Assembly (NCBI GenBank): GCA_038735125.1
Contig: JAVYNU010000001.1
Span: forward strand, 1-64,000
Source of the DNA: Ignisphaera sp.
Lineage (GTDB): Archaea; Thermoproteota; Thermoprotei_A; Sulfolobales; Ignisphaeraceae
Length of the DNA stretch: 64,000 nt
Reading direction: 5' to 3'
Shown here: in pieces, positions 3,606-54,071 of the stretch
Layout: each line of letters starts with the position of its first letter
Numbering within the stretch: the stretch's first letter is position 1
The notes under the pieces: model-generated
The model's database searches: none
Told to the model about the DNA's origin: nothing
Seen by the model: the letters and a program-made list of their open reading frames with translations, nothing else
Made by a program: the position numbers and the translations under genes

Positions 3606-5222
3606 TTAGTCGCCTTTCGCAATTATCTCGTTGACGAGTTCTAGACATGCTGGTATATAGCGTATGTAGATCTTCTCGTTCTGCTTCTTTACCTCTACAA
3701 TATTTCTTTCCAACCCGGCGTGCGCATAGAAGTGTCTCTCGTTGGCTTGGCATCTCTGCTCGGGCCTGCTTCTCGCTTTGTGCTCTGCTTCCATGAGTAC
3801 TTCTCTCAGCTTCTCCCTCGCTATGGCATCTTCAAGGCTCATATTGAGGACTTGGATTATGGTGTTGTAGACTAGTGGCTTGGACAGGTCTACTCCCAGC
3901 GTCTCGAGGGCATTCACATGCTTTTCAATGTCTTGCACTTCGTACATGAGGATCTTCGATGCTATTCTACTGAGCCCCAGCTCCCCACCCAGCTTCTCCA
4001 ACAGCTCTAGCTCAACCCAGCCCTCCCCAGCTTTGAAGTCGAGCTTGATGGCCTCCCTTAGCCTCTTCAGCAATCTCAGAGCTGAGAGCAGGTCCACAAC
4101 CCCTGGGGTTACTGCATACTTGTGCTCAACTGTAACCGAGTCTCCCTCTAGCCTCACACTCCTAGAGTATAGAGCGTCCTTGACCTTGCCCTCGAGGCTG
4201 GATATATCCCTCTCGAGCTCTCCCAGGTCTAAGCCGGCCATCCTCGTTAATATGTATAGAACGAGTCCATAGCTAGACGCCCTTGTAAGAGCGTTCACCA
4301 AGTCTGTGTAGCTTTTGGAGGTGTAGTCGATGAGCTTGCTCAGCTCCTGAATCTCCTTCGGCGGCTCAACCCTCTCGAGCGCTCTCGGCTTTAACTCCTC
4401 CATGGAAAGGTCGCTGACTGTTGACTCGAAGAGCTCCAGCGGCTTCTCCTCATACGTTCTAAGCTCGACTAGGTGGATGTGTGAGGACTGGCCTGGCTCT
4501 TGTACCGGATCGCTATTCACAACAGCTACCACCACTTTCTTCCCCCTCAGCGCACTATAAAGCCTTATGGACTTGTGAACAGCCTCTCTGCCAAGCACCG
4601 GAAGGTAGTTTACACCATGGCTTATGTCTAGCACCACCAGGTCTGGGTCTACACAATTGAGAGCATCTGCTAAATCGATTAACAACGCGGCATATGTGTT
4701 GAGCGGCGACCCCCTATAGACAAACCTCCTAAGGTTAGAACATGCCCTGTACACACCAATACCTGGAAGCACACTAACGCTTGCAGCAAGCTGCTCACCT
4801 ACCTCCTTAGTGTACATGTCTGTGAATCTCTCTAGAACCCACCTAGCCACCTCCACAACATCATTGTACTCGATATGGTCACTACACAGAGATCCCTCGA
4901 CACGCCTGCCCACCTCCTCAACGAGCTTAGCCCTTGGATCGCCCTCAACAGCCTTACCTGGTTGCTTACCCGAGCTGGGCCTCGGCGGGGTTGCAAGCGT
5001 GTCCAGGCCATAGATCCTCAGATGCGGCTCGAAGCCCAGCCTCTTCAAGGCAACCGCTTCAACAATAGTCGTTGAGTAGGAATCTATACCCTCCCCCGGC
5101 ACCCAACAACTAGGCTTACCCACACACCTCTTGTCATTGGGCACCACAGGGATGTATCTAGCTCTGTGCCACCCACCAGGGTAGCCCCACAAACCAATTA
5201 CCAGTACATTGATATTCGTCAT
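3606..5222 (-). CDS. csx1: Csx1-family CARF-HEPN nuclease of the type III system
   Basis: Csx1-type proteins bind cyclic oligoadenylate made by Cas10 through an N-terminal CARF domain and cut RNA with a C-terminal HEPN domain. Here the CARF region starts NVLVIGLWGYPGGW and contains VLDISHGVNYLP, typical of the Csx1/MJ1666 group. The HEPN motif RHFYAH (R-x4-H, Arg at about 496 and His at about 501 of 538) is intact, followed by AGLERN. I prefer the ATG at 5222, giving MTNINVLVIG; a longer frame from 5264 overlaps the upstream cas7 and adds 14 residues not expected in the family. It is the last gene of the effector operon, 13 bp after cas7. Activity is inferred, not shown. Confidence 0.88.
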   Translation of the reverse strand: MTNINVLVIGLWGYPGGWHRARYIPVVPNDKRCVGKPSCWVPGEGIDSYSTTIVEAVALKRLGFEPHLRIYGLDTLATPPRPSSGKQPGKAVEGDPRAKLVEEVGRRVEGSLCSDHIEYNDVVEVARWVLERFTDMYTKEVGEQLAASVSVLPGIGVYRACSNLRRFVYRGSPLNTYAALLIDLADALNCVDPDLVVLDISHGVNYLPVLGREAVHKSIRLYSALRGKKVVVAVVNSDPVQEPGQSSHIHLVELRTYEEKPLELFESTVSDLSMEELKPRALERVEPPKEIQELSKLIDYTSKSYTDLVNALTRASSYGLVLYILTRMAGLDLGELERDISSLEGKVKDALYSRSVRLEGDSVTVEHKYAVTPGVVDLLSALRLLKRLREAIKLDFKAGEGWVELELLEKLGGELGLSRIASKILMYEVQDIEKHVNALETLGVDLSKPLVYNTIIQVLNMSLEDAIAREKLREVLMEAEHKARSRPEQRCQANERHFYAHAGLERNIVEVKKQNEKIYIRYIPACLELVNEIIAKGD

Positions 5223-5235
5223 GGCGCTATCGCGA

Positions 5236-6198
5236 CTAGGCGAACTCTTTAAGCAGTTCGCCAAGAGGTTTCTGAGCTAGGTTCTCGATATTTATCAGCG
5301 CATCAAGTAGTTTTGTTTTGTCGTTAATGGTATTCAGATCTATGTATATCCCTCTACTGTTTTCAAGATCTAGGAAAAGCTTGCCAACACCTATGGACTT
5401 TGCACCTCCAATAGATATCCCCACCTTGTTTAGATATTCTAGCACAGCTCTAAGTATTCTAAGTTCTGGGCCACCTCTTACAACATTCTTTATGGTTATA
5501 TCTATCGATAGAGAGTCTAATGCTGCGTACTCTCGTGTGTATAGCCGTTGGGGCATTGCTGTAGAGCTCTGGCGAGAGATAGATACATGGGTAACAGTAT
5601 GCGTAGAAACTATGTGTGGCTCTACCCTAAGCACAGATATCTTGGATCCTAGACCAGGGCCTCCGAAGAGCCTGCATATCGGGCACAGAGCTGAGAGCAC
5701 TGGCTCTAGCTCTCTAGGCATTTTGTCGAGGCTATCAACACCCCCCATTATATTCGAAATCTCTGTAGCGGCATCATCGGTTAAGAAATGCCTGTAGAGA
5801 TCTCTGTTACTGGTTAATACCTTGACTAAGTTCTTGACGAGGCTTAGGTACTCATCTCCGCGGGGAGAACATATATGTCTGATTATATCTTCCTCAGGTT
5901 CGCAGTGTGCCTCAGCGAAGATCCTGTCGGCTATGTCTCCAAATGCGTTGAGAGACACCTTGGCAATGGATTCTGCAGCTGATCTGAGAGCCCCTATGAA
6001 ACTCGATGCAGGTATGTAGATCTCGCCGCCAACTCTGAATACGGGGGTGTATGCCGCCCCCCTCTCTGAGGCTATATGCACTAGCCCAAGACTGTTAAGG
6101 GGCTTGAACACCAGCTTTAGGTAGAGCACAGTGTTCAGCTTTTTCTCTCGCTCAATAAACTCTCTCAGCCTATTACCAACAATGTTGGCGTCTATCAC
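5236..6198 (-). CDS. Cas7-like RAMP subunit (Csm3-type) lacking the catalytic Asp
   Basis: A 320-aa RAMP of the Csm3/Cas7 superfamily and part of the effector backbone that holds crRNA. It shows the family signature IYIPASSFIGALRS, the block CRLFGGPGLGSKIS around residues 173-187 and a C-terminal glycine-rich loop SIGGAKSIGVGKLF. Where other Cas7s carry an aspartate just before the IPASS motif, this protein reads RGAAYTPVF, so it probably does not cut target RNA. GTG start at 6198 follows GGTGGTG. It sits 1 bp after the Csx10-like gene. Likely an end or insert subunit. Confidence 0.88.
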   Translation of the reverse strand: MIDANIVGNRLREFIEREKKLNTVLYLKLVFKPLNSLGLVHIASERGAAYTPVFRVGGEIYIPASSFIGALRSAAESIAKVSLNAFGDIADRIFAEAHCEPEEDIIRHICSPRGDEYLSLVKNLVKVLTSNRDLYRHFLTDDAATEISNIMGGVDSLDKMPRELEPVLSALCPICRLFGGPGLGSKISVLRVEPHIVSTHTVTHVSISRQSSTAMPQRLYTREYAALDSLSIDITIKNVVRGGPELRILRAVLEYLNKVGISIGGAKSIGVGKLFLDLENSRGIYIDLNTINDKTKLLDALINIENLAQKPLGELLKEFA

Positions 6199-6199
6199 T

Positions 6200-7393
6200 T
6201 TACACCACCTCTACAAAATCTTGTCTAATGAGCTTGGCGAAGTTGAATCCCTGAGACGATAAGCTGTTGAATCCTGTCGCTACTGTATAGGCTAGAAGCT
6301 CATGGTTGTACACACGCAGTATCTCAGCCACAGCCAGGGTTCCAGGGCTATTAACCTCCACAGGCAACTTTGGTAGCCCAGTTCTATAAGACCACCCATA
6401 ATACTTTGTTGTGTGTCTGCCGATAACAGCGCGAATCTTTATCACAGCAGCTGTTGATCCAAAGACCTTCACAGTTATTTCGTCGCCTGTCACCACAGGT
6501 CCTGGCACACCATCTATGTTTAGCATTGGTGACGCTGCGTAGAGTACATATAGTTTGTTGTCTAGGTCAAATGGGTCAATGACTTTTGATTGGTCTATAC
6601 TCTCTATGCATAGTCTCGATATCCCGAATCCTCGCCCACCACCTCTGCCAACTCTAACAACTAGGCAACTCTTATCATAGGATTTGAGCGCGTCAGCTAT
6701 AGGCGAACCACTTTGAGTCGCTATAAGCCCTACAAACATGTTGCCAGGCTCTATGTACTCGTATGCATAGAGAGCCCCCGAAGCCGCGCTTCTGCGGGCT
6801 CTATCAACAGCTGTCTCTACGTAGATACTTGTGCTCGGCTCCGATACCACCCATCCACCAGCATCCCTAACTATTGTGTTTCCACAGGCACTTTTCATCT
6901 CCGTAGAGGACTTTAGCACCTCAATTGGGTTGCTAACAGCGTTTTTGAATGCCTTTACATCTGTGATGAGTGTGACATTAAATATCAGCTCCTTCAGAGC
7001 TTCTTCCACGCCATATTTCCCTGTTTCAATGTATTGTAGGAGCCTGTCTATGCCGAAGCTCAGCACCCTGGGGGATCCAGTCGCGTGCTTGAACATAAAT
7101 GTGAGTGCATGTGCAAATGCCACGTCTTTGATTGGTATAGCTGTATCGGCTTTTTCGCGGGGCACATGTAGAGCCGGGGTCACACTGTGGCTTGGATTTA
7201 GAGACTCGCGGTGAGCGTCTGCACTTGTTATAGCGTTTTCGCTTAGAAGCTGTGAGAATAGAGCGCCTCTAACCACCGAGCCCAATATGTATTTGGATAC
7301 GGTGGTGTAGCTCATGCCTCTGTAGCCCTGGGCGGAGGTCACGATGGCAGGCGTCAACAGCTCTAGTCTATACCTATATAACCCTATCTCCAT
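6200..7393 (-). CDS. csx10: Csx10/Cas5-like RAMP of a type III-D-like complex
   Basis: This RAMP of about 397 aa resembles Csx10, the Cas5-type subunit of III-D effectors that caps the 5' handle end of crRNA. The N-terminal half carries LELLTPAIVTSAQGY and an insert with several cysteines. A central block reads VDRARRSAASGALYAYEYIE then PGNMFVGLIA, followed by the glycine loop VGRGGGRGFGISRL. I choose ATG 7393 because AGGAGGTG lies just upstream; GTG 7399 is possible. It stands between two Cas7 genes with 1-10 bp gaps. The subtype assignment rests mainly on this gene and on the several separate Cas7s. Confidence 0.75.
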   Translation of the reverse strand: MEIGLYRYRLELLTPAIVTSAQGYRGMSYTTVSKYILGSVVRGALFSQLLSENAITSADAHRESLNPSHSVTPALHVPREKADTAIPIKDVAFAHALTFMFKHATGSPRVLSFGIDRLLQYIETGKYGVEEALKELIFNVTLITDVKAFKNAVSNPIEVLKSSTEMKSACGNTIVRDAGGWVVSEPSTSIYVETAVDRARRSAASGALYAYEYIEPGNMFVGLIATQSGSPIADALKSYDKSCLVVRVGRGGGRGFGISRLCIESIDQSKVIDPFDLDNKLYVLYAASPMLNIDGVPGPVVTGDEITVKVFGSTAAVIKIRAVIGRHTTKYYGWSYRTGLPKLPVEVNSPGTLAVAEILRVYNHELLAYTVATGFNSLSSQGFNFAKLIRQDFVEVV

Positions 7394-7402
7394 ATCCACC
7401 TC

Positions 7403-8107
7403 CTAAGAAACCTGGGTAACGGAGAGCACGTATTTTACATTCTCATCTTCTGCAATGTCCGGGGGCTCAATCTTTAAGATGTAGCTCTTTGCCGACGACC
7501 TTCTACCCACATACTTGTAGCGTAGCATAGCTATCGCTATGGTTAGTAGCCTAGCCACATCAGTAAGTTCGCTGAAATCGGCTGACTCGTACATTATCTC
7601 CCCATAGAACAGGGTTGCTGGGGCAACCCTAAGCTCTTTGAACAAAGCTCCTTTGGCAGCTCTAGCACATCTGTCGTCTAGCCTCACATGGGGCTCGATA
7701 TAGGTACTTGGAGACAGTAGAGTGCTGTCCTTGAACAGATAGGCCATTGGCTCATCGTTTGCCAGTGCCTTAGCCGACTCCACATCTTTAACTGGGTAGA
7801 GAGGGCCGAACATGGTTGGCGACGGCACTACAGCAACTTTGTCGCTAAATGGTGTTAGGGGCCCAAATACCTTCAATATGATGTCTCTGCTCTGCACAAT
7901 GCCTACTCTAGTGAGGTGGTCAAAAACCTCCTCAGCTGCTCTCCTCAGAACCCCCTTGATGTAGGTGTGCGGTATGCAGAGAACCTCGCCTCCTCGTGCA
8001 TGCCTACAGGCTGTTGTAACAACATTTGCTTCGAGAAGCCCTTTGCCACTGCCCCACAGCCCACCACCCTCAAGCTTGAGCAAATAACATATTCTGAGAC
8101 GAGCCAT
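7403..8107 (-). CDS. Small Cas7-like RAMP subunit
   Basis: A RAMP of about 234 aa, shorter than the other Cas7s here. It starts MARLRICYLLKLEGGGLWGS and contains VLCIPHTYIKGVLRRAAEE, the counterpart of the IPGSSLKG motif. The position of the cleavage aspartate is occupied by LLEANVV, so it is probably not catalytic. I choose the ATG at 8107, preceded by GGGGGTTG, over a start at 8122 that would overlap cas10. It follows cas10 by 4 bp and may serve as the Cas7 next to Cas10 or as a cap subunit. Confidence 0.82.
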   Translation of the reverse strand: MARLRICYLLKLEGGGLWGSGKGLLEANVVTTACRHARGGEVLCIPHTYIKGVLRRAAEEVFDHLTRVGIVQSRDIILKVFGPLTPFSDKVAVVPSPTMFGPLYPVKDVESAKALANDEPMAYLFKDSTLLSPSTYIEPHVRLDDRCARAAKGALFKELRVAPATLFYGEIMYESADFSELTDVARLLTIAIAMLRYKYVGRRSSAKSYILKIEPPDIAEDENVKYVLSVTQVS

Positions 8108-8111
8108 TGCA

Positions 8112-10934
8112 TCAACCCCCAATGACTATTTCAACAAGGTTGTAGATGTCGAATAGAGGTGGCATATCTTTGCAGAGAAGCGATAGTCTTGCCATTCCCT
8201 GGTAAACACCTCTGCTCCTCTCCTCAACGCGGTTAGACTCTCTAGCTAGGTATAGACCTAGGACGAGGTTGTTAGCCCCGTGGTCATGGACTATGGTCAT
8301 GGCTTCCTGTACCAATGACTCTATGTCCCGCAGAACATTCTTCAGATCCTCTTTGCTGGCTAGCTGTATAAGGATCTCCGTAGCTGTGCCCAGGTCATCG
8401 ACTCTCTTCCCAATTCCTTGGCTTAGAAGCGCATCGAGAACTGTTAGCATGTCGTCGCAGCCCATACCCACACCCCTCTGAACAGTTACTACGAAAGGCT
8501 GTTGACTCAGTCTATAGCCGGTGGCAGAGTACTTTTTGAAGAGCTGTGCAACCTCTGTCTCGAAGAGCTGCCACTCGCTTTTGATGAAAGATACTGTGGC
8601 AACGAGCTTCGGGCCCAGCTTAAACACCCTCTCTTCTCGGAATCTAGACTTGCACCTCTTGAGCAGGTATTCAGCTGCGTCGAGGACATTCCATATGTTG
8701 TGTTTGGGCTTGGCAGCTGCTATAGCTATAGACAGGGTGAGCTCGCCGCCATTCAATCTCCAGAAGGCCTCGGCTGTGGCCAGAGCCAGCGGCAGAGCTA
8801 CGCTGGAGGGCCATATAGCAAGCATATCGTCTCCACCAGCATATAGGGTACCTGCGAAAACCCTGGTAGCAATCTTGTCGAACTCGTCGATATTGCCAAT
8901 ACTGTTCCTGAGCCTTTGAAGCGCTGTTAGGAACCCCAGCTTCAAACCCATATCTATTCTAATGCTTCTGCACATAGCCTCAGCAATGTTTAGTGCCGAC
9001 GCCATGTACTGCCCAGCGGCATTTCCATCAACTTTAACTATAGCAATCTTGCGCTGCTCAACACCAAGCCTATCTAGCTCAACTCCTGAGAGCCAGGAGA
9101 TGAGGTATTGATACACCTCCTTAACCCTGTTCTTCTCGATTATGTCTCTAGCCTCTCTATAGCCTAGGGAGGCTAGGTACCCAAGCTTCGTTCTTATATA
9201 CATGCCTGTGCCAAGGTCGTGCAGACTTCTGCACTCGGAACACACATACTCGCCGTTGAGATTCTCTGTAGCCGGCCTCCGTCTACAGTACTCGCATAGC
9301 ACCTCATACCCCGTCTCAGTCAATCTTCTCATTGTCCTGCGAAGCTCTTTTCTTGCTGCAAGTTCGGCAACACCTCTTCTAATGGACCAGCCCCAACTGG
9401 ATTTAAGCTCCGATAAAGCATAGGTCAAATTGATGTCGAAGCCAACTAGGCTCTTAACGTACTCAGCAACCTTCTCAACATCTGTGGTGCGCGACGGGGC
9501 AAAGGCTATTACAAAGCCCCCGCCTGCATAGACTATAGCGTCTAGCGAGAGACCGAGCTTCTCGATTATCGCTCTGGGGATGGCATATACTGTGCAGGCG
9601 TCTATCACAAAGCTTGTAGCTGTTAGTATTCTAAGCGACTCCCTCTTTATGAAACTCTGAATCCCTGCCACATCAACTACCAGCAGCTTGACCTCCTCTA
9701 TGCTTGACCCAGGATCCTCGAGGAGGTCAGAGGGTATCAGCCGGGCTTTGAGGCTCTCAGCTATCTTCTTTACAACACTGCTGTACAGGTCGTTAGGCAT
9801 AGAGAGCCAGGCATCCCATATCTTGGGCCCTGTCCCTGCAAAAAGATCCTCAACCTTTAGCCCACGCCCTTCAGCATATTTGGCGAGGGTGTCATGTACA
9901 ATAGATGCGAAGTACTTGCTAAGCCTATCGATATTCGAAGACCTCTGGTCAGCTTTGCTTAGAATCTCTCCTAGCTCCTTTACTTTCACCTCCAATCCCA
10001 AACCATCTAGCTTAAATGAGCTTGGCAACTTCTCTACATCGTGATGCTTCTCTATGAGCTCACAAAGAGCTTTGTAGACCTCGTCCAAGCCCAGCCCAGA
10101 CAAGAAGTCTTTGAGCCTGCTCTTCTCGATTAGCTCAACAGACTTCGCAGCATGGCTTACATAAACCCTATCTCTGTAGATCTCAACCCAGCTAGCGGGC
10201 TTGCCTATATCGTGTAGAAGCGCAGCTAGTCTAAGCAAAGCCAGCTCCAGTCTATGTTGCTTAGAGTTCTTCTGGAGGGAATCCCAATATTTGTTGACAT
10301 ACATTGCTACAGCCAGTCCTGTTGTGGCAATGGTGTGCGGGATTAGCTTAGATATGCTACACCCAGGCCTAGTATCTGAAGGCAAATTCAATAAGAGGTC
10401 GAGCCTCTCGAGAGCCTCTTTCATGTCCTGCGGTGGAGCCACAATTTCTCCGAAGTGCTTCACAAACTCGTTGATGGTCCCAGCAACCTTCTCGTAATCA
10501 AACTCTTTGGCTAATCCCCTCAAACTCCTGCCTTCACCCAGTATCTCCCGCATAACAGCTGTGTCTCTACCCATAATCCATGCGTAGAGCAGGTCTTGTG
10601 GAGACGGTGTCACAGCGCCGACCACTCCCTGAAGCTGTACCGGGGGTGTCAGCGGGGTTACGAAGTATCTGCGAAAGGCTATCGATATAGCGTCGGCGAG
10701 CCTCTCAAGCAAGCATATCGCTAGGTCTACCCCCTGCAAGTCTCTGCAAATCCTAAACGCCTGTTCCACACCTTGGAAGAGCGTTGAGACAGCGTTGACA
10801 GCAGACTCAACTAATCCAAGCAGCTTTTTCCCATAGTTCGAGAGCTTCTCCAGACTCACACTAGTTATGTAGGTCTGCTGTCCAGTCTCATCGATGAGAG
10901 GAGACTGGTGTGTCACAACTATGTAATCGCTCAT
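8112..10934 (-). CDS. cas10: Cas10 large subunit with HD nuclease and GGDD cyclase
   Basis: Signature protein of type III CRISPR, 940 aa. An HD nuclease domain lies after an unusually long N-terminal helical region, with the HD pair at residues 241-242 (LLHDIGKP) and further histidines in KHHD at 297-298. The first palm domain begins near 416 (LLVVDVAGIQSFIK) and has a degenerate YAGGGF at the GGDD position. A four-cysteine zinc site lies at 547/550 and 565/568. The second palm carries D635 (VKVDGN) and an intact GGDD at 700-703. Both DNase and cyclic oligoadenylate synthesis are therefore expected, matching the Csx1 gene downstream. ATG start at 10934. Confidence 0.96.
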   Translation of the reverse strand: MSDYIVVTHQSPLIDETGQQTYITSVSLEKLSNYGKKLLGLVESAVNAVSTLFQGVEQAFRICRDLQGVDLAICLLERLADAISIAFRRYFVTPLTPPVQLQGVVGAVTPSPQDLLYAWIMGRDTAVMREILGEGRSLRGLAKEFDYEKVAGTINEFVKHFGEIVAPPQDMKEALERLDLLLNLPSDTRPGCSISKLIPHTIATTGLAVAMYVNKYWDSLQKNSKQHRLELALLRLAALLHDIGKPASWVEIYRDRVYVSHAAKSVELIEKSRLKDFLSGLGLDEVYKALCELIEKHHDVEKLPSSFKLDGLGLEVKVKELGEILSKADQRSSNIDRLSKYFASIVHDTLAKYAEGRGLKVEDLFAGTGPKIWDAWLSMPNDLYSSVVKKIAESLKARLIPSDLLEDPGSSIEEVKLLVVDVAGIQSFIKRESLRILTATSFVIDACTVYAIPRAIIEKLGLSLDAIVYAGGGFVIAFAPSRTTDVEKVAEYVKSLVGFDINLTYALSELKSSWGWSIRRGVAELAARKELRRTMRRLTETGYEVLCEYCRRRPATENLNGEYVCSECRSLHDLGTGMYIRTKLGYLASLGYREARDIIEKNRVKEVYQYLISWLSGVELDRLGVEQRKIAIVKVDGNAAGQYMASALNIAEAMCRSIRIDMGLKLGFLTALQRLRNSIGNIDEFDKIATRVFAGTLYAGGDDMLAIWPSSVALPLALATAEAFWRLNGGELTLSIAIAAAKPKHNIWNVLDAAEYLLKRCKSRFREERVFKLGPKLVATVSFIKSEWQLFETEVAQLFKKYSATGYRLSQQPFVVTVQRGVGMGCDDMLTVLDALLSQGIGKRVDDLGTATEILIQLASKEDLKNVLRDIESLVQEAMTIVHDHGANNLVLGLYLARESNRVEERSRGVYQGMARLSLLCKDMPPLFDIYNLVEIVIGG

Positions 10935-10946
10935 CTATTCACACCT

Positions 10947-11255
10947 TCACAGTTTGGTCGATAGGTTCTCTGCTGACCTATAGTCTCTCCTTAGAACAGA
11001 TTGGCTGTCGAAGACATACGGGCATTCCACATCATATCTGCCGACCCGGTTGCCCCCAGATATAACGTGGTATATGCACACCTCTCTACCCTTGTCCGAT
11101 CTCTCTTTCGTCACTACTATGGCTAGCTTACTCCTCTTCACATCGCTAATCACATTGTTGTCCACGGTGCAGACAACTTGGCCTCTAGACGATAGGTCGT
11201 CGTCGTAAAAGACTATGAAGGCCTTCTTACCTAGGAGCTCCCCCTCGAAACTCAC
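10947..11255 (-). CDS. Small protein of unknown function inside the cas operon
   Basis: 102 aa, GTG start at 11255 overlapping the stop of the upstream cas7 by 4 bp and ending 12 bp before cas10, so it is certainly translated with the effector. It begins MSFEGELLGKKAFIVFYDDD and contains AIVVTKERSDKGREVCIYHV. It looks like a compact alpha/beta domain with no membrane segment. I recognise no family; it does not resemble the helical Cas11 subunit, which is encoded elsewhere in the operon. It could be an extra effector subunit, comparable in position to Csx19-type genes of III-D loci. Confidence 0.8.
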   Translation of the reverse strand: MSFEGELLGKKAFIVFYDDDLSSRGQVVCTVDNNVISDVKRSKLAIVVTKERSDKGREVCIYHVISGGNRVGRYDVECPYVFDSQSVLRRDYRSAENLSTKL

Positions 11256-12268
11256 TTCGCAACCACCTTGTCTTTCACATCAGCTTCTGAAAATCCGTGT
11301 AGTTGCGATAGCTGGGGGTACCTGGTGAGGGTCTCGTCAATGGCCATGTCAATGAGTTTCTGCAACTCCTTTTCTCTGCAAATAATTTCGATGTGCTCGA
11401 CACTGCAGTTCAGCCCCCACTTAGCGAGGGTCTCGGCGAATCGAAGTGGAGCTTTGAGCGCTACAACCATGAATCTCGCTTTGCCCATGTCGGGATACGC
11501 ATATTTGTGTTTGCCGATGAGCACCGGTATGCCAATGGAGCTGCCCTTAGCTATGCCCATTGATATGAGCAGCGCCCCTATCTCCTCAAGCTTGAGTGCA
11601 GAGAACATGATTGAGCCTTTGAGTCTGGTGCCCGGCTTTATTGCATAGACCTTTTCCCCGTATGGCAGATCCCTCTTCTCGTAAGCTTCTAGACTACAGC
11701 AGAAGTTGCTTGGCATAACCCTGCCCACAACCCCTGGAGCCCCAAAGATGTCGCAGACAACACATATTGTATAGTCTTGCGTCTCTATAGGATTGCAATA
11801 TGGGCCTCGATTCTCTGAAACTGCTTTCCAGATTCTTGCATGTCTCCAGCCGTGGGCGCCTGGTGGTGGAGGTGATGAAATTGGCTTGACATCGCTTCGC
11901 ATACAAGATATGGCCGAGCCATCTTTGGCAGGGCATAGCTCTAGCCTAGCCCTTAAGAGACCCTTTATTGTGGAGCCCGGTATACACACACTATCTCCAT
12001 AAACAACGTTGTCTATATAGTCGAGAGCAACATACGATGAAACCCTCTGCAACGCTTTTATATCACCTTTAATGAGAGCTTCTTCAACAGTATTTAGCAG
12101 GCTAGCAGCTGTTTTAATGTCGATTAGACGCTCCAGCCTCTCCCTACCCATAGACACATGGATATATGAAAGAGCCTCTATCTCAGCCTCGATAACGCCG
12201 CTGAGTGTCCCCTCCACCTCTATATCTCTTACAGTAAAAGCCTTTCTGGTCACAGCTATGCTAGACAT
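11252..12268 (-). CDS. Cas7-like RAMP subunit with conserved Asp
   Basis: A Csm3/Cas7-family RAMP of about 338 aa. An aspartate in YIDNVVYG (residue 91 counted from the longer start at 12283) precedes VCIPGSTIKGLLRARLE and matches the position of the target-RNA cleavage residue of Csm3. A cysteine-rich insert (CVVCDIFGAPGVVG with nearby Cys) may bind zinc. I choose ATG 12268 (MSSIAVTRKAF), which has GGAGGTG about 7 nt upstream; a TTG at 12283 would add five residues. It overlaps its upstream neighbour by 13 bp, showing tight translational coupling. Confidence 0.88.
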   Translation of the reverse strand: MSSIAVTRKAFTVRDIEVEGTLSGVIEAEIEALSYIHVSMGRERLERLIDIKTAASLLNTVEEALIKGDIKALQRVSSYVALDYIDNVVYGDSVCIPGSTIKGLLRARLELCPAKDGSAISCMRSDVKPISSPPPPGAHGWRHARIWKAVSENRGPYCNPIETQDYTICVVCDIFGAPGVVGRVMPSNFCCSLEAYEKRDLPYGEKVYAIKPGTRLKGSIMFSALKLEEIGALLISMGIAKGSSIGIPVLIGKHKYAYPDMGKARFMVVALKAPLRFAETLAKWGLNCSVEHIEIICREKELQKLIDMAIDETLTRYPQLSQLHGFSEADVKDKVVAK

Positions 12269-13176
12269 GAGCTCCACCTCCAACCACTTTCAGACACCTT
12301 CCTAAGCTTCTGCAATGCACCTCTCCAAGCATTGGCAAAGTTCTTGAGCATCTCCAGCCAGCTGCTCTCCACCACCTTTACATCCACGTCCAACGGATCG
12401 AGAGCCGGTATAGAGTCTTTAAGTTCCGCACCCCCTCTATAGTCATAGCCATAAACTTTCAGATTCTCGATTTTGACCCAGCCAAAGCCCCGTGTCTTGA
12501 GGCCTCCAATCTTCAGAAGACCCATGTGCATATCCAGTAGGGACTCTGCAACAACGCCAATTGCATAGTTAGGTAGATTAACAAACTCTACTCTGAAACC
12601 AAACTTGGCGCCAGGCTCCACATACTCAACACTGAACAGAGCCCTGGGTTTTGCCACACCAGTCCTCCTATCGATTGCAACCATAGTTCTATAGCCAAGT
12701 CTGTACCCATCAGTGGGGTAGCTGTCATAGAACCTGATGTGCGAGACTAGGCCAGGGGAGCCAAACATTAGGCATGCCAAGCATATAGGCTTAGGTAACG
12801 CATTAGCTATGTTCTCCGCAAGGCTCTCATAAGAAGCCCTATGCTTTTCAAGCTCCTCAAACTCATCTCCTTTGAGACATGTATCCCCGGGCACACCACC
12901 ACAAACAGCAAGCCCTGCACTCCTCATCAATTTAACAACATAGCTTCTGAAAACCCCTTTCAGTGACGAGCCAGGGATATAGGGGATGCTTTTGCCGTCA
13001 GCCGTGGTTATCTTGACAACCACCAGGTCTACAGGCTCGAAAGTAGCTGCAGCACGACCAGCTCCGACCCTGAGCGGCTCAATATTTGTTATAGTGCCCT
13101 CAAACACCACCCTTCTAACCAGCTTGTGAAGTCCAAACCATTCAAAAGCCTTGGCAGCTACACTCACTTTCACCAC
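12256..13176 (-). CDS. Cas7-like RAMP subunit with conserved Asp
   Basis: 306 aa, Csm3-type backbone subunit. It carries NIEPLRVGAGR, the putative cleavage Asp at residue 50 (FEPVDLVVVK), IPYIPGSSLKGVFRS, the block CLMFGSPGLVSHIRF and a C-terminal LKIGGLKTRGFGWVKI glycine loop. GTG start (13176 or 13173) overlapping the preceding cas7 by a few bases. The conserved Asp suggests it contributes one of the regularly spaced cuts in target RNA; this is inference from Csm3. Confidence 0.9.
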   Translation of the reverse strand: MVKVSVAAKAFEWFGLHKLVRRVVFEGTITNIEPLRVGAGRAAATFEPVDLVVVKITTADGKSIPYIPGSSLKGVFRSYVVKLMRSAGLAVCGGVPGDTCLKGDEFEELEKHRASYESLAENIANALPKPICLACLMFGSPGLVSHIRFYDSYPTDGYRLGYRTMVAIDRRTGVAKPRALFSVEYVEPGAKFGFRVEFVNLPNYAIGVVAESLLDMHMGLLKIGGLKTRGFGWVKIENLKVYGYDYRGGAELKDSIPALDPLDVDVKVVESSWLEMLKNFANAWRGALQKLRKVSESGWRWSSCLA

Positions 13177-14126
13177 CTCGAAATCAATTCTCTTAGTGTA
13201 ATGTTCTTCTCCTCAACTAGGGAAAGGTCTTTCACAACATAGACTACAACACGGGTTTTCTCGGGGTCTAGCCTCAGAACCCCGTGTCCAACGCTCTTCA
13301 TACCACCAAACATTATACCTTGAGATGCAAACATCTTTAGATATGTTCTCAGAAGTTTACAGACATCGCTATCACATGCAGTGATGTCTATATTCTTTAG
13401 CTCTGCTCTGAAGCGCCACCTGTATCCAGGGGGTATGAATTCATATTCAAATAGCGCACCACTTCTAGCAGCCTCTCTAAACCGGTCTATTGCTACTCGT
13501 GCGCGTGTAGCTAGCTTAACCTCCTGATCTTTCACCGGATACACATCGAAGAATATGGCCTTAGAGGCGAGGGCTTGGTTGCCGAAGACCCTGCATATTA
13601 TACATGGGCTATACTGCTTCAACACAGACAACAGATTATCTACAGACGACACCTGCACTATACTAGACATAATGTTGCTGACCACAGCTTCTGCATCTCT
13701 TATGCGCCTACGGGAAGCTATTTCAGCAATAACCCCCCGGCTTTGTTTATCAAGAAGTGTCTTCTTCAATTCATCGAAGCTTCTAGATTTTTGCGCCACT
13801 TGATACACATAGTTAAGGAATTCAACTGCAAAAGAGCATGTTGCATCGTTGAATAGTTCACACACCTTGTAGTTACCGGCTCTAGCCACAGCCTCTAACA
13901 GAGACCTAGTAGCACCTTTGATGGTAGATGCAGGAATGTATGGCACACCTCTAGGATCCCTCAGCACAGGAAGATCTACTTCACCTAACCCACCACGGCC
14001 TTTACCAATGCGAAGCGGTGTTTCATTAACAGCTTCACCTTCTATAACAGTAATCGACTTCAGAACATCGTGATCGATGCCTAGTACACGAAGTCCTTCC
14101 ACAACCTTCTGAATCTCGCCACTCAA
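13170..14126 (-). CDS. Cas7-like RAMP subunit (Csm3-type) with conserved Asp
   Basis: 318 aa. Family blocks in order: LRIGKGRGGLGEVDLPVLRD with the putative catalytic Asp at 51, VPYIPASTIKGATRSLLE, CRVFGNQALASKA and FASQGIMFGGMKSVGHGVLR. Apparent TTG start at 14126. It lies 21 bp downstream of the small-subunit gene. Of the five Cas7 paralogs this most resembles a classical Csm3. Confidence 0.9.
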   Translation of the reverse strand: MSGEIQKVVEGLRVLGIDHDVLKSITVIEGEAVNETPLRIGKGRGGLGEVDLPVLRDPRGVPYIPASTIKGATRSLLEAVARAGNYKVCELFNDATCSFAVEFLNYVYQVAQKSRSFDELKKTLLDKQSRGVIAEIASRRRIRDAEAVVSNIMSSIVQVSSVDNLLSVLKQYSPCIICRVFGNQALASKAIFFDVYPVKDQEVKLATRARVAIDRFREAARSGALFEYEFIPPGYRWRFRAELKNIDITACDSDVCKLLRTYLKMFASQGIMFGGMKSVGHGVLRLDPEKTRVVVYVVKDLSLVEEKNITLRELISRW

Positions 14127-14147
14127 GATTCCAACCTTCTCGCATGA

Positions 14148-14606
14148 TTAAATACGTAAGAGGGTTTTGAGATAAGTTTGTGCAAATCCTTGAGGTGCTT
14201 GCATGTTGGGGTTGCGCAAATAGTTGCTATATTGCTTTCGCAGATCATTTTGCGGATTAAGTTCCCAACACTCAAAGAACCACTTAAAATAGCTGAGAGC
14301 AATCCTCAGCACCTTTTGCTGTTCCTTTATATCCCTAACATTAGAGATGAGATTATTGAGTACCCGATACAATCTAGTACCGCTAACACGTTCCCATTCT
14401 TTTCGACTCATTTGACGAACCAGATAGAGTAGTAGTGTAAAACCATCAACAGTTTCATTAAGCTCTATAAGCTTGTTAATTTGTGATCGATCAAGATAAT
14501 CGCATTTCCCATTTTCACATTTAATAGGGTTGACCCTTGCAGCAACAGCTGCTAATGCAAGCTCATCTAGCACATTACTGGGGGGCGTGGGAGCCGTATA
14601 GGACAA
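14148..14606 (-). CDS. Putative Cas11 (Csm2/Cmr5-like) small subunit, first gene of operon
   Basis: 152 aa, almost entirely helical, with CENGKCDYLDRSQINKL near the N-terminus and KVLRIALSYFKWFFECWE near residue 105. Small helical proteins at this position in type III operons are Cas11, which lines the belly of the complex. Sequence similarity in this family is low, so the call rests on size, predicted helicity and place. The start appears to be TTG at 14606. A TATA-like box lies just upstream, so this gene probably heads the operon that runs to csx1. Confidence 0.65.
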   Translation of the reverse strand: MSYTAPTPPSNVLDELALAAVAARVNPIKCENGKCDYLDRSQINKLIELNETVDGFTLLLYLVRQMSRKEWERVSGTRLYRVLNNLISNVRDIKEQQKVLRIALSYFKWFFECWELNPQNDLRKQYSNYLRNPNMQAPQGFAQTYLKTLLRI

Positions 14607-48728: not shown

Positions 48729-51497
48729 CTATGAAGACACAGTTATTTTTATGGGGTGGTAGACGCAGACCCCTTCTCCGCCTGGCTGTGTGCAGTACTG
48801 TAGAAGCATGTACACAGTTCCAGACTGTCCAGCTGCTGTGAAGTATCCTGAGAAGCTGATGTTGCCTCTTGTGCTTGGGGCTATCCTCACCCAGTCAGTT
48901 GATGCTGTTGTTGGAGCCCCGCCAACAATTCTGATTGGCTGGCTGGTGTAGGTCGAGTTGCGTATCGTGATGTTTGCTGTTAGATATGCAGAGCCGGTGT
49001 AGCTAGATAGCAGAAGCCTGGCGTAGTATGGCTTGGAGTCGCTGTTGTATATGGACGAGACTATAAAGCCTGTTATACTTGCTGAAGAGCTCGATATTGT
49101 TGCTGAGACAGCTACGCTGGTGTAGTTTGCTCCCGGAGACCATGAGAGAGTGCCTGTCAACAAGCTGTATGTGTCGCCGCCAAGTATAGCATCTCCAGAG
49201 GTGTAGACGAGGCATGGCGTTCCATCGGGAAACCTCACTACAATCCTACCATCGGTGCCGGTGCCAACCACAGCGTCTGTGACAACATTGAATGTAACAG
49301 TGCCACTAGCAGATGTGACAGAACCCACTAGGTTTCCAAGGTTATCCCACAACCCAACACTATAGCCCACAGGAACATTCTGAATGGCTATAGTCCTGGG
49401 GTCTGATGTAGAAACTATGAAGTCGTCGTAGATGACGTCTACGTACAGCAGGTTAGACGCGTAGCTCCCTAGACCAACGTAGATGGGCTGAAAAGTAGAG
49501 TCTGAGAAGCGCAGTTGAGAGACTAGGTTTCCGCTGGCATCGTATAAATACGCAGTTACGTAATTGACTCCCCCGCTTCTAGTGTAGTTGATGTAGAGGG
49601 CGTACCAGGCATTGTTTGCGTAGCCTCTAATCTGCGAGCTACTGATAGTAACCCACGAAGCCCCAGAGTTTCTCAGAGCGGTGAGGTAGCCACTCGTGTT
49701 TACTACTATCGCATAGAATCTGCTCTTGCTCGAATCTATCAAGAGAATCGAGCCCCAGCCAATCCCATTCCTATTGTTAATCTTCGTGGAGAGCCACAAG
49801 CTGTTATAGGAGCTCAGATCTTCATTCAGGTAGAGTGCTGTGAAACCTGGGAAGCCGAACTTTAGATACCCGTAATCATTATACGTACCGCTTCTCTCCA
49901 TGATGATAGTGTAAGTGTTGTAAGGGAAGGTGAAGTTCGATATGACCTGGTTATCGGTTGTTCTGAGGAGTACGTAGAATACATCGAAGTACAGAGACTG
50001 TCTAGTCCAGTAATCAGTTAGTACGTAGGAGAAAGTCACGTAAGGACCATAGCCTTGCAGGACTGTTGTATTAGTGATATCGAAAGATCTTGTGCCAGAT
50101 GTTGGCATGTACACCGTGTATAGCCTGTAGTAGATTTCATTGTATTTCTGCCACGGTGGTGCCCAGTCATTGTATGTGGCGAAGTAAGTATCATTTCTTC
50201 TGTCAATAGGTTTATTCACTATACCTATGAAACCAACTATTCTATTAGAAAACGTGTAGTATACATTGAATCTGTTTCTAATTACCGTTTCATTAATTAA
50301 TTCAATAGGCATAATCATCATTAAATAACCATCTCCAAGTGACGAAGTTCCAGCCGTGTAGCTATCAATCCTGATAGCGTTAGTAGCCTGGGGGATGAAC
50401 CTAACATCAGGGTTCCAGTTAGAGTTCGAGTACGTTTTTTGCTCTCTCACCTGCCACAGCAGGGGGAACCCCCTTAAGCCCCTCCCTTTATAACCGTAGT
50501 TTACAAGCCCCCAGTATCCCCCGGGCCCTATGAACCCCCTTGCTCCGAGAGAGCCGTTGATTATTGCCCAGTTGCTGGGCAGAGCCTCGAAGTCTGTATA
50601 ATATATCGCCCCTCTACCTATTCTCGTCAGCGCTATGCAGTATGTTGCTGGGGGCTGCTGGAATTTTATAGGCGGTGTCACAGTCGCTGTGGATAGTTGC
50701 ATTGGGCTGTAGACGAATGTGCCTGCAGATGCAACTGCTAAAATCAGTATCAGAGCTACTGCTATTGGTGTCTGTGTTGTGAGCAGCTTCTTTACACTCT
50801 TTATCTTAGTCCACACCCTTTTCTCTACTGCTGTCGCTGGCTCAACATATTTTCCATACAGGTATATTGTCCAGACTATTGCGGCTAGCGATAGTGCTAC
50901 GGCTACTGTTAGGGGTATTAGCAGTGTGTATGGTGTTTCGAAGACCATTCTATACGCCACTGTTTTCAGTGTCTCTATCCCCGGATACTCTATGATTCCA
51001 GCCGTTGTTGCGAGCCTTATGGTGTTGCCGTTTCTGGCTATTGTGAGTATTGTTGATGCGTCTGCTGAGAACGCTTGTGTGAGATATCTTAGGACGCCGG
51101 ACACTATTTCGAGTGATAGGGAGACTCCGTAGGCTAGTGCAGATGCTGTCACATACCTCCTCTTATATACTAGTGCTGTGGATGCTGCCGACATTGCCAG
51201 AAGCGCAAATGCGTACACCACTGTTGCTAGGGAAACTGTTTTGACAGCGTCTATATTCGGCATGTAGATGCCGTTCCCATTGAGGGTATTGGTCATTGAG
51301 TAGCCTGTGAGCGATATGTAGCCCCTTACAAAGCCCTCGACAAACATCTGCGGGTAGAGAAGAGCCACTAGATACAGTATAGCGGTTAATGCGTTTGCAA
51401 GCCCAGCCAAGGCTATGACTGCTCTCATCCTTTTGGAGACGAACCTCCCCAGAACAGCGTCTAGGTCTATCCGTATCTCACTGTCAGCACTTGCCAC
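48729..51497 (-). CDS. Large membrane/surface protein with beta-rich ectodomain
   Basis: 922 aa. Residues 1-270 hold four to five membrane helices (IALAGLANALTAILYLVALL, ATVVYAFALLAMSAASTALV, LLIPLTVAVALSLAAIVWTI and IAVALILILAVASAGTFVY). The remaining ~640 residues are extracellular and rich in Y, N, S and T, with lectin-like or DUF2341-like segments (GRGLRGFPLLWQVREQKTYS, KFGFPGFTALYLNEDLSSYN). The transition VASAGTFVYSPMQLSTATV echoes the TasA-like gene upstream. It overlaps the signal peptidase gene by 31 bp and is probably a surface adhesin exported with that module. Confidence 0.8.
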   Translation of the reverse strand: MASADSEIRIDLDAVLGRFVSKRMRAVIALAGLANALTAILYLVALLYPQMFVEGFVRGYISLTGYSMTNTLNGNGIYMPNIDAVKTVSLATVVYAFALLAMSAASTALVYKRRYVTASALAYGVSLSLEIVSGVLRYLTQAFSADASTILTIARNGNTIRLATTAGIIEYPGIETLKTVAYRMVFETPYTLLIPLTVAVALSLAAIVWTIYLYGKYVEPATAVEKRVWTKIKSVKKLLTTQTPIAVALILILAVASAGTFVYSPMQLSTATVTPPIKFQQPPATYCIALTRIGRGAIYYTDFEALPSNWAIINGSLGARGFIGPGGYWGLVNYGYKGRGLRGFPLLWQVREQKTYSNSNWNPDVRFIPQATNAIRIDSYTAGTSSLGDGYLMMIMPIELINETVIRNRFNVYYTFSNRIVGFIGIVNKPIDRRNDTYFATYNDWAPPWQKYNEIYYRLYTVYMPTSGTRSFDITNTTVLQGYGPYVTFSYVLTDYWTRQSLYFDVFYVLLRTTDNQVISNFTFPYNTYTIIMERSGTYNDYGYLKFGFPGFTALYLNEDLSSYNSLWLSTKINNRNGIGWGSILLIDSSKSRFYAIVVNTSGYLTALRNSGASWVTISSSQIRGYANNAWYALYINYTRSGGVNYVTAYLYDASGNLVSQLRFSDSTFQPIYVGLGSYASNLLYVDVIYDDFIVSTSDPRTIAIQNVPVGYSVGLWDNLGNLVGSVTSASGTVTFNVVTDAVVGTGTDGRIVVRFPDGTPCLVYTSGDAILGGDTYSLLTGTLSWSPGANYTSVAVSATISSSSASITGFIVSSIYNSDSKPYYARLLLSSYTGSAYLTANITIRNSTYTSQPIRIVGGAPTTASTDWVRIAPSTRGNISFSGYFTAAGQSGTVYMLLQYCTQPGGEGVCVYHPIKITVSS

Positions 51498-52600
51498 CTC
51501 CTCTCACCCCACACAAGATACTCTACACGGGCATAGACAAACCTGCTGCCCTCTGGGGGCTCTACATAGACTGTCTCAAAGCTGTTTACAACAGCAGATG
51601 TGTTTGCATATCTCCAGTTCCCGCCAACCCCATAGGCATACTGGAAGGATATGTTGAATTTCATCGGAAAGCAGTTTGGGTTGTATATTGCTAGAGAGCC
51701 GTTTACAGCTCTAAGAATTGGGCTGTCGCCGTATACCCTGATTCTGTAGCTTCCGTAGAGCCTGCCAACGTTATTTAGCGTTGCTATAACAGATGCGTTC
51801 AGGTTGCCACTTCCCTCAAAAACCTCTTCAACCATTTTTGGAGGTGGATAGCCTATCACATGGGTTGAGTTGTATACTGTCTGCACCAAAACGCCGTCTA
51901 CATACATAGACGCATCTGATATAGCGAAGTCTCCTGTGTACTTAATGGCTACGGTACAGCTCTTGGAGTCGAAGTCTGCGCTAGACAGGTATAGGGCTGG
52001 CGGATAGAGCCTTGTGTAGCTTGGGGCTGGCTGGGCAAGTCCGTAGACAAGCATTATAAACAGTATTATCGTTGCGTAGGTCAGGGCAGAGCTGATCCCA
52101 ACAACCCTTGTCCTAGCTATAGATGCTACTGCAAAGCCTGTTGAGAACAGGAACAGCGGCAACCAGACAAGGCGTGGGATGGTGGCAACAACAACGCCCC
52201 TAACCTGGTTGGGGGAGACAGGCGGGTCTGCAGCAGGGTTGGCATCGCCCTTGGTTATAACACACCTGCTCTCGGGGCAGAAGCCTATTACCCTGTGGAC
52301 AACGCAGAAGCTTGGGTTGATGCAGTAGACAACGACATCGCCTTTGGAGAAGCTTCCTCGGACAGAGACAACCAAGTCCCACCTGTGTATAGAGGGCTCC
52401 ATACTACCAGAATAGACTATGAAGCTCCCAAACAGGTTCAGAATGTTTGCCCTAGACAAGAAGGCGAATAGAAACAGGGCAAAGAAGATAACTATAATGG
52501 CATTGGATATGTGGGAGAGGGTAGGGATAACCTTTCTATAAAAAAACCTTTTGTTTTTATAGGGTTCACATCGACCACCTGCTCTATGGCGGCGTCTCAT
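51467..52600 (-). CDS. ER-type (SipW-like) signal peptidase I
   Basis: 377 aa, S26B family. N-terminal helix AIIVIFFALFLFAFLSR; catalytic Ser66 in VYSGSMEPSI, His102 in VVHRVIGF, and Asp119/Asp125 in TKGDANPAADPP, so a Ser-His-Asp enzyme. Two further helices and a ~170-residue outer beta domain follow, longer than housekeeping signal peptidases. It sits between a TasA-like protein gene and the large surface protein, the arrangement of bacterial sipW-tasA and archaeal bundling-pilus loci. Confidence 0.88.
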   Translation of the reverse strand: MRRRHRAGGRCEPYKNKRFFYRKVIPTLSHISNAIIVIFFALFLFAFLSRANILNLFGSFIVYSGSMEPSIHRWDLVVSVRGSFSKGDVVVYCINPSFCVVHRVIGFCPESRCVITKGDANPAADPPVSPNQVRGVVVATIPRLVWLPLFLFSTGFAVASIARTRVVGISSALTYATIILFIMLVYGLAQPAPSYTRLYPPALYLSSADFDSKSCTVAIKYTGDFAISDASMYVDGVLVQTVYNSTHVIGYPPPKMVEEVFEGSGNLNASVIATLNNVGRLYGSYRIRVYGDSPILRAVNGSLAIYNPNCFPMKFNISFQYAYGVGGNWRYANTSAVVNSFETVYVEPPEGSRFVYARVEYLVWGERRWQVLTVRYG

Positions 52601-53171
52601 CAGATGGTGTGTAGACTATGTGCATGCTGAAGGTAGCTGAAGTACCTGTTATCTTGGTGCCCTCCGGTATGTAGACCAAGAAGTCGATTTCCCAGTGTTT
52701 GCCGCCTCCAAGCGTGCCAAGCAGTATTGGGGTGTCTGTGCTCTGTGACAATAAATCAACTGAACTAATATTTGCTGTTTTCAGTTCCGCACCCCCTGGT
52801 ATTAAGTTTCTGGTTGCGTTGACAATTAGATACACTTAGGGCCTGTGGGCAAGGTATTTGTCACTTGGTCTAGAACAAGCCAGACGTTGTATACCCTGGT
52901 ATCGGTGTTCGATATTCTAATGACATCCTTATAATATGTTGTGTGGTATGTTGGGTGGATTGTTATGGTGGCACTTGTGCTGTTTTGTTCAACAGTAACA
53001 GAGATGGTGTTTGCTCCTAGGTCTGGCTGATTAGCATTGGTGCCGGCTGCAAAGACTAGTGGTGGTGATACTGGTTGTACTGTTAGCTGTAGTGGGTAGT
53101 AGGCGAAGACGCTGGCCGCTATGAATGCCGCTGCCAATAGTATTGTTGTTGCTAGTAACAGGTTTGTTCAT
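52584..53171 (-). pseudogene. TasA/camelysin-like filament protein, two frameshifts
   Basis: Joined frames give a secreted protein of about 195 aa. ATG 53171 with GGTG upstream opens MNK; after one extra C the frame continues LLLATTILLAAAFIAASVFA, a good signal peptide. The mature part has IRISNTDTRVYNVWLVLDQV. Near 52833 one base is missing and the frame changes again to VYLIVNATRNLIPGGAELKT and FLVYIPEGTKITGTS, ending at 52584. A beta-sandwich next to a SipW-like peptidase fits TasA/AbpA-type fibre proteins. Two indels mean a pseudogene or sequence errors. Confidence 0.68.
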
Positions 53172-53357: not shown

Positions 53358-54071
53358 GTGTTTGTTTTGAGCGATGCTGTTTGGCTTGCTGATGTGTTGG
53401 CTGGTGTTAAGGGTGAGTTAGAGCCTGTTTGCTCTAGGTATGCTATTTCTGGTGTTTGTGGCGCTGTTTTGGAGGGTGTTGCTGAGGTTTTCCCTACTTG
53501 GTTTAGTGGTAGGAGGAAGAGTGTTGTGGCAGCTGTTATACTCTATCTATCGCTTTTGATAGCGAGGGGCGTTAGAAAGGGGTTTTTGAAGGATTCTCTA
53601 GATCTTTTGAAGGCTTCTAAGCCTGCTGTTATAGATGCTTTCTCTAGGATTGCTTTCGTCGATTGGGATTCGGGGGTTCTGTATCTAGACCAGAAACTGT
53701 TTAATGCTTTAGCTAAGAAGATCAAGCTTCAAAAGCATGTGAAGCCCTATAGCTTTAGGGAGGTTGTTAGAAATAGGGTTGTGAAGGTCTACCCGGGTAT
53801 TTACAGCTATCTAGACTTCTTGTGCACGAAGCTCTCTGGGAAAGACTTTTTAAAGACGCTTTTAGAAGAGCCTGCAACTGCTAGGAAGGTGCTTCTAGAG
53901 GTGTCTGTAGAATGGCGAGTTGTGGAGGGGGTTGCCGAAAAGATTATGGAGACTATCGCAGAGCTTCTAGGGGTTGGAGAAAAACCTCAGAAGCTTGCAC
54001 AGCTTCTGTTTGAGAATCCTGAAGAGCTTGGCAAAGTCTTTAAGAATCTTCTGGCAAAGTCTTCGAGATGA
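53358..54071 (+). CDS. Hypothetical helical protein
   Basis: 237 aa, mainly helical with one modest hydrophobic stretch (VVAAVILYLSLLIARGV near 55-72). The middle part is basic (KKIKLQKHVKPYSFREVVRN). Frame and codon use look genuine. Divergent from the surface-protein module and upstream of the KaiC-like gene. No family recognised. Confidence 0.75.
   Translation: MFVLSDAVWLADVLAGVKGELEPVCSRYAISGVCGAVLEGVAEVFPTWFSGRRKSVVAAVILYLSLLIARGVRKGFLKDSLDLLKASKPAVIDAFSRIAFVDWDSGVLYLDQKLFNALAKKIKLQKHVKPYSFREVVRNRVVKVYPGIYSYLDFLCTKLSGKDFLKTLLEEPATARKVLLEVSVEWRVVEGVAEKIMETIAELLGVGEKPQKLAQLLFENPEELGKVFKNLLAKSSR

Follow-up and report, generated by a model that had tools for sequence, protein, structure and literature searches.

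A four-component archaeal gene cassette for a predicted thread-like surface fibre with a lectin-like adhesin

The locus and its components

The window analysed here comprises the first 64,000 nucleotides of contig JAVYNU010000001.1 (C1) of Ignisphaera sp. (assembly GCA_038735125.1), the genome of which measures 1.81 Mb and is 99.9% complete. On the minus strand, at 53171-48729, the open reading frames (ORFs) read as a fibre-type gene, a signal peptidase gene and a giant gene of 922 residues. A preliminary description had proposed that these three genes overlap or abut as one module, and both ORF coordinates and conservation agree with this: the fibre frames 53137-52826 and 52835-52584 lie directly upstream, and the peptidase ORF (52600-51467) starts inside the end of the second of them and overlaps the giant ORF (51497-48729) by 31 nt. 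The module has four components rather than three, namely a fibre subunit, a signal peptidase, a secreted minor subunit or adhesin and a four-helix membrane protein. The features are as follows.

52584..53171, minus strand: fibre (major) subunit gene with two frameshifts (near 53163-53165 and 52836-52837); profile match on both pieces; intact copy in the relative G005 (L021/L057)
51467..52600, minus strand: archaeal-type signal peptidase I, 377 aa, with Ser66, His102 and Asp119; C-terminal extension at about residues 188-377
48729..51497, minus strand: giant protein, 922 aa, read as a single chain made up of a four-helix membrane domain and the minor subunit/adhesin
50778..51497, minus strand: four-helix membrane domain gN, residues 1-240 (profile A6, hydropathy); a separate gene in most relatives
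50709..50765, minus strand: internal signal-peptide-like segment, residues 245-263, with a cut predicted after Ala258, between ASA and GTFVYSPMQL
49401..50618, minus strand: predicted legume-lectin/CBM66-like domain at about residues 294-699, split by an insertion (model, VIA Z 19.2 to CBM66)
49830..50468, minus strand: 213-residue insertion (344-556) in the lectin domain, found in two other genomes of the 211 searched; modelled at a predicted local distance difference test (pLDDT) below 50
48732..49292, minus strand: C-terminal fibre-subunit-like domain at about residues 736-922 (by hhalign with the fibre alignment)

Most relatives have two genes in place of the giant one: between fibre and peptidase, a gene for a secreted protein that corresponds to the ectodomain and bears its own signal peptide, and after the peptidase, a gene for a four-helix protein that corresponds to giant residues 1-240. 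Judged by these counterparts, the 'giant surface protein' is a four-helix protein fused to a secreted minor subunit. The third partner is multi-helix and its ectodomain opens with the junction of the fibre protein, as first described, but it combines two proteins which most relatives encode separately. Neither the four-helix protein nor the adhesin matches a named Pfam family. Any role assigned to the four-helix protein is conjecture from its frequent presence. A relationship to the Sulfolobaceae membrane protein encoded beside the thread gene is not claimed (hhalign probability 6.0, E 0.006).

The likeness between FVYSPMQL in the giant and FAYYPLQL in the fibre protein, pointed out in the preliminary description, is real. 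A profile made from an alignment of the fibre proteins of 18 relatives matches giant residues 243-281 or thereabouts (50771-50655) with an E-value of 2.7e-5; in a search of the whole genome, the fibre gene was the only other place matched in this way. In each of the 12 fused proteins examined, a hydrophobic segment and A-x-x-(F/Y) are conserved ahead of the strand, and separate fibre and adhesin precursors mostly show the same arrangement; L172 and L173 carry the same internal signal-peptide-like segment. This segment has probably retained its function as a signal peptide, since the separate locus L023 (G053), nested in the fused clade, has an adhesin with its own start and signal. The N-terminal strands of fibre and adhesin are more alike within a genome than between genomes (p 2e-4 for 16 pairs, and p 5e-4 for the 14 pairs left when the window and L022 are omitted). 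Such resemblance would be expected if both strands fit the same groove, and common descent contributes to it as well. As a separate observation, the fibre protein (7690-8322) and fused adhesin (9425-11602) of L022 share 20 of 21 N-terminal strand residues, as if by gene conversion.

Families and predicted folds

When compared with the PDB, the 18-row fibre profile matched a single chain at E-values up to 10, the thread subunit Saci_0406 of Sulfolobus acidocaldarius (E 3.4e-5; PDB 7pnb); the chain of the Pyrobaculum calidifontis AbpA pilus (PDB 7ueg) was absent from these matches. Comparison by hhalign with four Sulfolobaceae thread subunits gave a probability of 97.6. The window's own gene being broken, the fold was modelled as a monomer with AlphaFold2 for the mature protein of G005, using 24 sequences, with a mean pLDDT of 93.3. 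Only two of 1495 Foldseek matches of this model had E-values up to 0.001, thread (6.5e-8) and AbpA (2.1e-6). VIA-align placed the same two ahead, thread with Z 14.3 (root mean square deviation (rmsd) 3.0, 158 aligned) and AbpA with Z 11.7 (rmsd 3.7, 159 aligned), followed by a row with Z 6.9 and by the Natrinema Tafi pilus with Z 6.6. The match to TasA (8aur) was weak (Z 5.5, rmsd 6.5, 141 aligned). By profile and predicted fold the subunit belongs with the archaeal threads.

The preliminary description had called the gene TasA-like, which holds in so far as it is of the TasA, bundling-pilus and thread kind; by profile, Foldseek and VIA-align, however, its nearest kin are the Sulfolobus thread and AbpA and not TasA. 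Membership of the TasA/Peptidase_M73 family was rejected: PF12389 gave no match in the window's genome, in a search that did detect the Bacillus subtilis control, and was absent from the Pfam matches of the 18 relatives' fibre proteins at E-values up to 0.1. These 18 proteins have no common Pfam family.

The peptidase scores 64.8 bits against TIGR02228, above the curated cut-off of 51.85, and its catalytic residues are conserved in the aligned peptidase rows (Ser in 33, His in 35 and Asp in 34 of 35). On this evidence it is an archaeal signal peptidase I of the Ser-His-Asp type. Its earlier comparison with SipW was right as to the type of enzyme but not as to the family, the SipW model of Bacillus (NF046067) scoring 32.8 bits with a cut-off of 190. 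No relationship is claimed between its C-terminal domain and the Saci_0407/0408-like protein (hhalign probability 0.9).

The ectodomain was modelled from giant residues 258-922 with 16 sequences. Mean pLDDT was 68, with values mostly at or above 85 outside the insertion (model residues 90-291, below 50) and its flanks. Model residues 37-442 without the insertion aligned to CBM66 with Z 19.2 (rmsd 2.4, 156 aligned) and to legume lectins with Z 16-17 (VIA). Foldseek matched the domain to CBM66 (E 1.2e-4) and, with a low TM-score, to the CFA/I tip adhesin CfaE (E 8.5e-5). The model points to a legume-lectin/CBM66-like domain, for which sugar binding is predicted at fold level. The 213-residue insertion has no Pfam match; in G002, one of the two further genomes, it lies inside a secreted adhesin. 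Two hits were taken as chance: a weak one in the PDB, between the adhesin profile and a haemagglutinin (E 0.027), and one to Pfam RHS_repeat that fell below cut-off.

The C-terminal domain of the adhesin appears related to the fibre subunit, as its hhalign comparison with the fibre alignment gave a probability of 95.6 (E 1.2e-8). Within the matrix of 28 profile pairs, this value stands beside that of fibre and thread; thread and adhesin C-terminal domain reached 33.3, and the other 25 pairs remained at or below 6.0.

Conservation of the cassette and the broken fibre gene

We mapped 67 loci (the window, L021-L040, L057-L082 and L116-L135), among which were 16 repeats, 11 loci that show no peptidase (the four Sulfolobaceae loci, L082, L135 and loci at contig ends) and 40 distinct peptidase-bearing loci. 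As loci were picked by a fibre or peptidase match, the counts describe gene order and not frequency. The order fibre, adhesin, peptidase, four-helix is found in 18 of the 40, and fibre, peptidase, fused four-helix and adhesin in seven, window included. The others comprise five without a four-helix gene (several at contig ends), four with fibre and peptidase only, three without a detected adhesin and three that are rearranged.

The fibre profile matches 69 of 214 genomes of the order. For the four-helix profile, matches were obtained in 62 of the 229 class genomes and, in a sample of the phylum, in 41 of 398. Forty-nine genomes match both profiles (Fisher p 2.7e-20, N 214, uncorrected for relatedness). 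In 42 of these they share a contig and always lie within 6 kb of each other; in the other seven they lie on different contigs. The adjacency of fibre and four-helix genes exceeds chance, and the grouping first seen in the window is thereby found to persist in relatives, with gene order kept across loci.

In a peptidase tree of 45 rows the ten fused rows need two changes, against 9.2 in shuffles, and the separate row L023 sits inside the fused clade (support 99/97), a pattern consistent with a single fusion that was later undone once. Because the same tree mixes families f1, f4, f5, f27 and f43 and scatters the members of the window's own genus, it suggests horizontal transfer of the cassette. 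Two variants were noted in passing. In G337 (L173, 6801-7823 and 5575-6774) the fused gene is split by a short gap into a four-helix-plus-junction ORF and an adhesin ORF, and L184, L185 and L186 carry a cassette of a diverged type, in which peptidase and four-helix gene are accompanied by large proteins (500-770 residues) that look secreted.

The fibre gene of the window is open as two pieces in different frames, 53158-52826 and 52835-52584. The ATG at 53171 does not share a frame with the FAYYPLQL stretch, and the frame changes again near 52836. An intact copy of 209 residues is present in G005, the nearest relative genome, and comparison with it places both frame changes in short A-runs. Programmed frameshifting is unsupported, the G005 copy being open without any frameshift. 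Ratios of nonsynonymous to synonymous substitution rates (dN/dS) against G005 are 0.47 and 0.41 for the two fibre halves and 0.36-0.46 for the neighbours. Since both halves resemble the neighbours, the break is, on these ratios, recent or a local sequence error in the assembly.

As a control for other breaks, about 33-36 kb were compared with G005. No similar A-run break was recognised elsewhere in this stretch, the control being a weak one in that its frameshift detector also missed the fibre gene itself. The scan flagged two of 49 genes as multi-frame; by reading these are a non-coding shadow ORF and a length difference of 28 nt. Direct DNA comparison with G005 gave 11 frame-changing gaps inside ORFs of at least 120 aa, none of which, by reading, clearly breaks a real gene (a low-complexity stretch, shadow ORFs and one compensating pair). 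An initial comparison against G005 contig C6 covered five orthologues only and was uninformative. Divergence from G005 (window 52600-48729 against L057) is very uneven, with a synonymous divergence (dS) of 0.11 in the peptidase and 0.6-0.8 in the second half of the fibre gene and the C-terminal part of the adhesin, which suggests recombination or exchange of exposed parts.

Proposed function and competing readings

Gene clustering, the folds of the parts, the fusion and the conserved cleavage-site motif were computed directly. On balance, and with somewhat better than even confidence, we read the locus as a gene set for a donor-strand surface fibre of the same kind as archaeal threads and bundling pili, with a lectin-bearing terminal subunit. 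Sec would export the precursors, and the neighbouring signal peptidase would cut between A and SVFxYYP, freeing the N-terminal strand of both secreted proteins. The major subunit would then polymerise by donor-strand complementation, each subunit passing its strand to the next, as in the thread and TasA. The minor subunit, with the same kind of starting strand, a lectin-like domain and a fibre-like end, would fill the groove of the major subunit at one fibre end, where it would start or cap the fibre, and may bind sugars on cells or surfaces. Its dedicated membrane partner, as platform or holder, could be the four-helix protein. In the window holder and adhesin are one polypeptide, whose internal cleavage site would let the peptidase release the adhesin, whereas an uncut copy would stay behind as a membrane anchor.

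Several points weigh against this interpretation. The fibre, its cleavage and the sugar binding are predicted, and we infer the cleavage, assembly order, tip position and four-helix role. The strand resemblance within genomes is confounded by shared ancestry. The putative kinship of the adhesin C-terminal domain with the fibre stands at profile level, and the 50 listed fold matches do not bear on that domain; in the adhesins of more distant loci the alignment is often confined to the C-terminal part, and the N-terminal domains are different ones. Sulfolobus threads can seemingly assemble without such a peptidase or four-helix gene, because neither was detected near the Sulfolobus thread gene. 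Finally, the fibre gene of the window is broken, and the system may be silent in this organism.

That last point bears on a reading which we rate not far short of even, that the window locus is a decaying remnant with a fibre pseudogene and other genes persisting for now. The two frameshifts speak for it, as do the lack of a comparable A-run break recognised in the stretch compared with G005 and a second broken fibre gene, that of G178 (L192), which has an internal stop in the N-terminal strand. Set against these are the open peptidase and giant genes, the similar dN/dS of fibre halves and neighbours, and the chance of a local assembly error together with the detector's failure on the fibre gene itself. 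Decay here would be compatible with a working donor-strand fibre system in the relatives.

It is unlikely, in our judgement, that the fused protein stays uncut in the membrane, with its ectodomain strand plugging the last fibre subunit and so tethering the fibre to the cell. This is close to what was first envisaged, a membrane anchor that assembles or tethers the fibre. Fusion to four helices in the seven loci is consistent with such a base, and TapA is reported to co-localise with the membrane (PMC10151520). The signal-peptidase motif is nevertheless kept in every fused protein examined, most relatives secrete the counterpart of the ectodomain as an independent protein bearing a signal peptide of its own, and a lectin domain better suits an outward adhesin. 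Because the ectodomain appears to pair a lectin-like with a fibre-like part, we consider an adhesive terminal subunit likelier than a plain tether, and the lectin domain and kept cleavage site make us favour release and a tip position. Less probable still is a surface layer or extracellular adhesion complex in which the fibre-like protein coats the cell or makes short complexes with the lectin protein. In its favour, the structure predictions covered monomers only; against it, the closest folds and the single matching sequence belong to fibre subunits whose structures come from filaments.

The donor-strand fibre thus favoured can be compared with known systems, of which the Sulfolobus thread is the nearest for the subunit by profile and fold. 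According to the thread paper, thread subunits polymerise by donor-strand complementation, the signal peptide is cut at Ala23-Asp24 without type IV prepilin processing, no usher or chaperone was found, Saci_0405 is a putative cap and Saci_0407 and Saci_0408 are unexplained (PMC9715654). In both thread and cassette the cut, in the latter predicted, precedes a tyrosine-rich strand, and neither appears to involve type IV prepilin processing. Unlike the cassette, the four Sulfolobaceae loci have no peptidase, four-helix or adhesin match near the thread gene. TasA also polymerises by donor-strand complementation (PMC9674648) and TapA gives the first strand to TasA (PMC10903470). The tapA-sipW-tasA operon of B. 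subtilis resembles the cassette in combining a major subunit, a minor first-strand subunit and a dedicated signal peptidase, but as described it has no lectin domain or four-helix partner, and the fold match to TasA is weak and the peptidase below the SipW cut-off.

FimH and CfaE are two-domain tip adhesins of chaperone-usher and CFA/I pili. Like them, the cassette adhesin seems to join a sugar-binding (here lectin-like) and a pilin-like domain on one chain; their lectin fold differs from its own, and its donor-strand-like start precedes the lectin. The resemblance is one of design by analogy and not of demonstrated descent. In the literature searched we found no description of the four-component cassette, although the AbpA paper, outside that search, could already show part of it.

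How archaeal donor-strand fibres start, anchor and become adhesive is the question which the cassette addresses: its conservation names a peptidase, a lectin-like adhesin and a membrane partner as candidates for these steps, and the fused form predicts a cleavage event detectable by mass spectrometry. Tentatively, and with clearly less than even confidence, we suggest that archaea have a self-contained, horizontally moving adhesive pilus with a lectin-plus-pilin adhesin matching bacterial two-domain tip adhesins in design, and that in one lineage the adhesin precursor is fused to the membrane, its release by the neighbouring peptidase starting fibre growth. If true, this would suggest that archaea and bacteria have reached the same lectin-plus-pilin design for sticky fibres.

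Some neighbouring features of the window were also recorded. An AP-endonuclease-like TIM-barrel gene (PF01261, 47490-48359) adjoins the cassette, and a 64% identical gene lies beside the fused cassette of G332 (L171, 10007-10921), which belongs to another family of the phylum. On the other side, a divergent gene of 237 aa (53358-54071) without a Pfam match is kept beside the cassette in L021 and L022 and is a possible regulator or partner. Further away, ORF translation revealed a CRISPR-array-like repeated stretch at 752-1246, and positions 3606-14606 hold a run of genes which, named by reading, resemble type III CRISPR effector (Csm/Cmr) genes.

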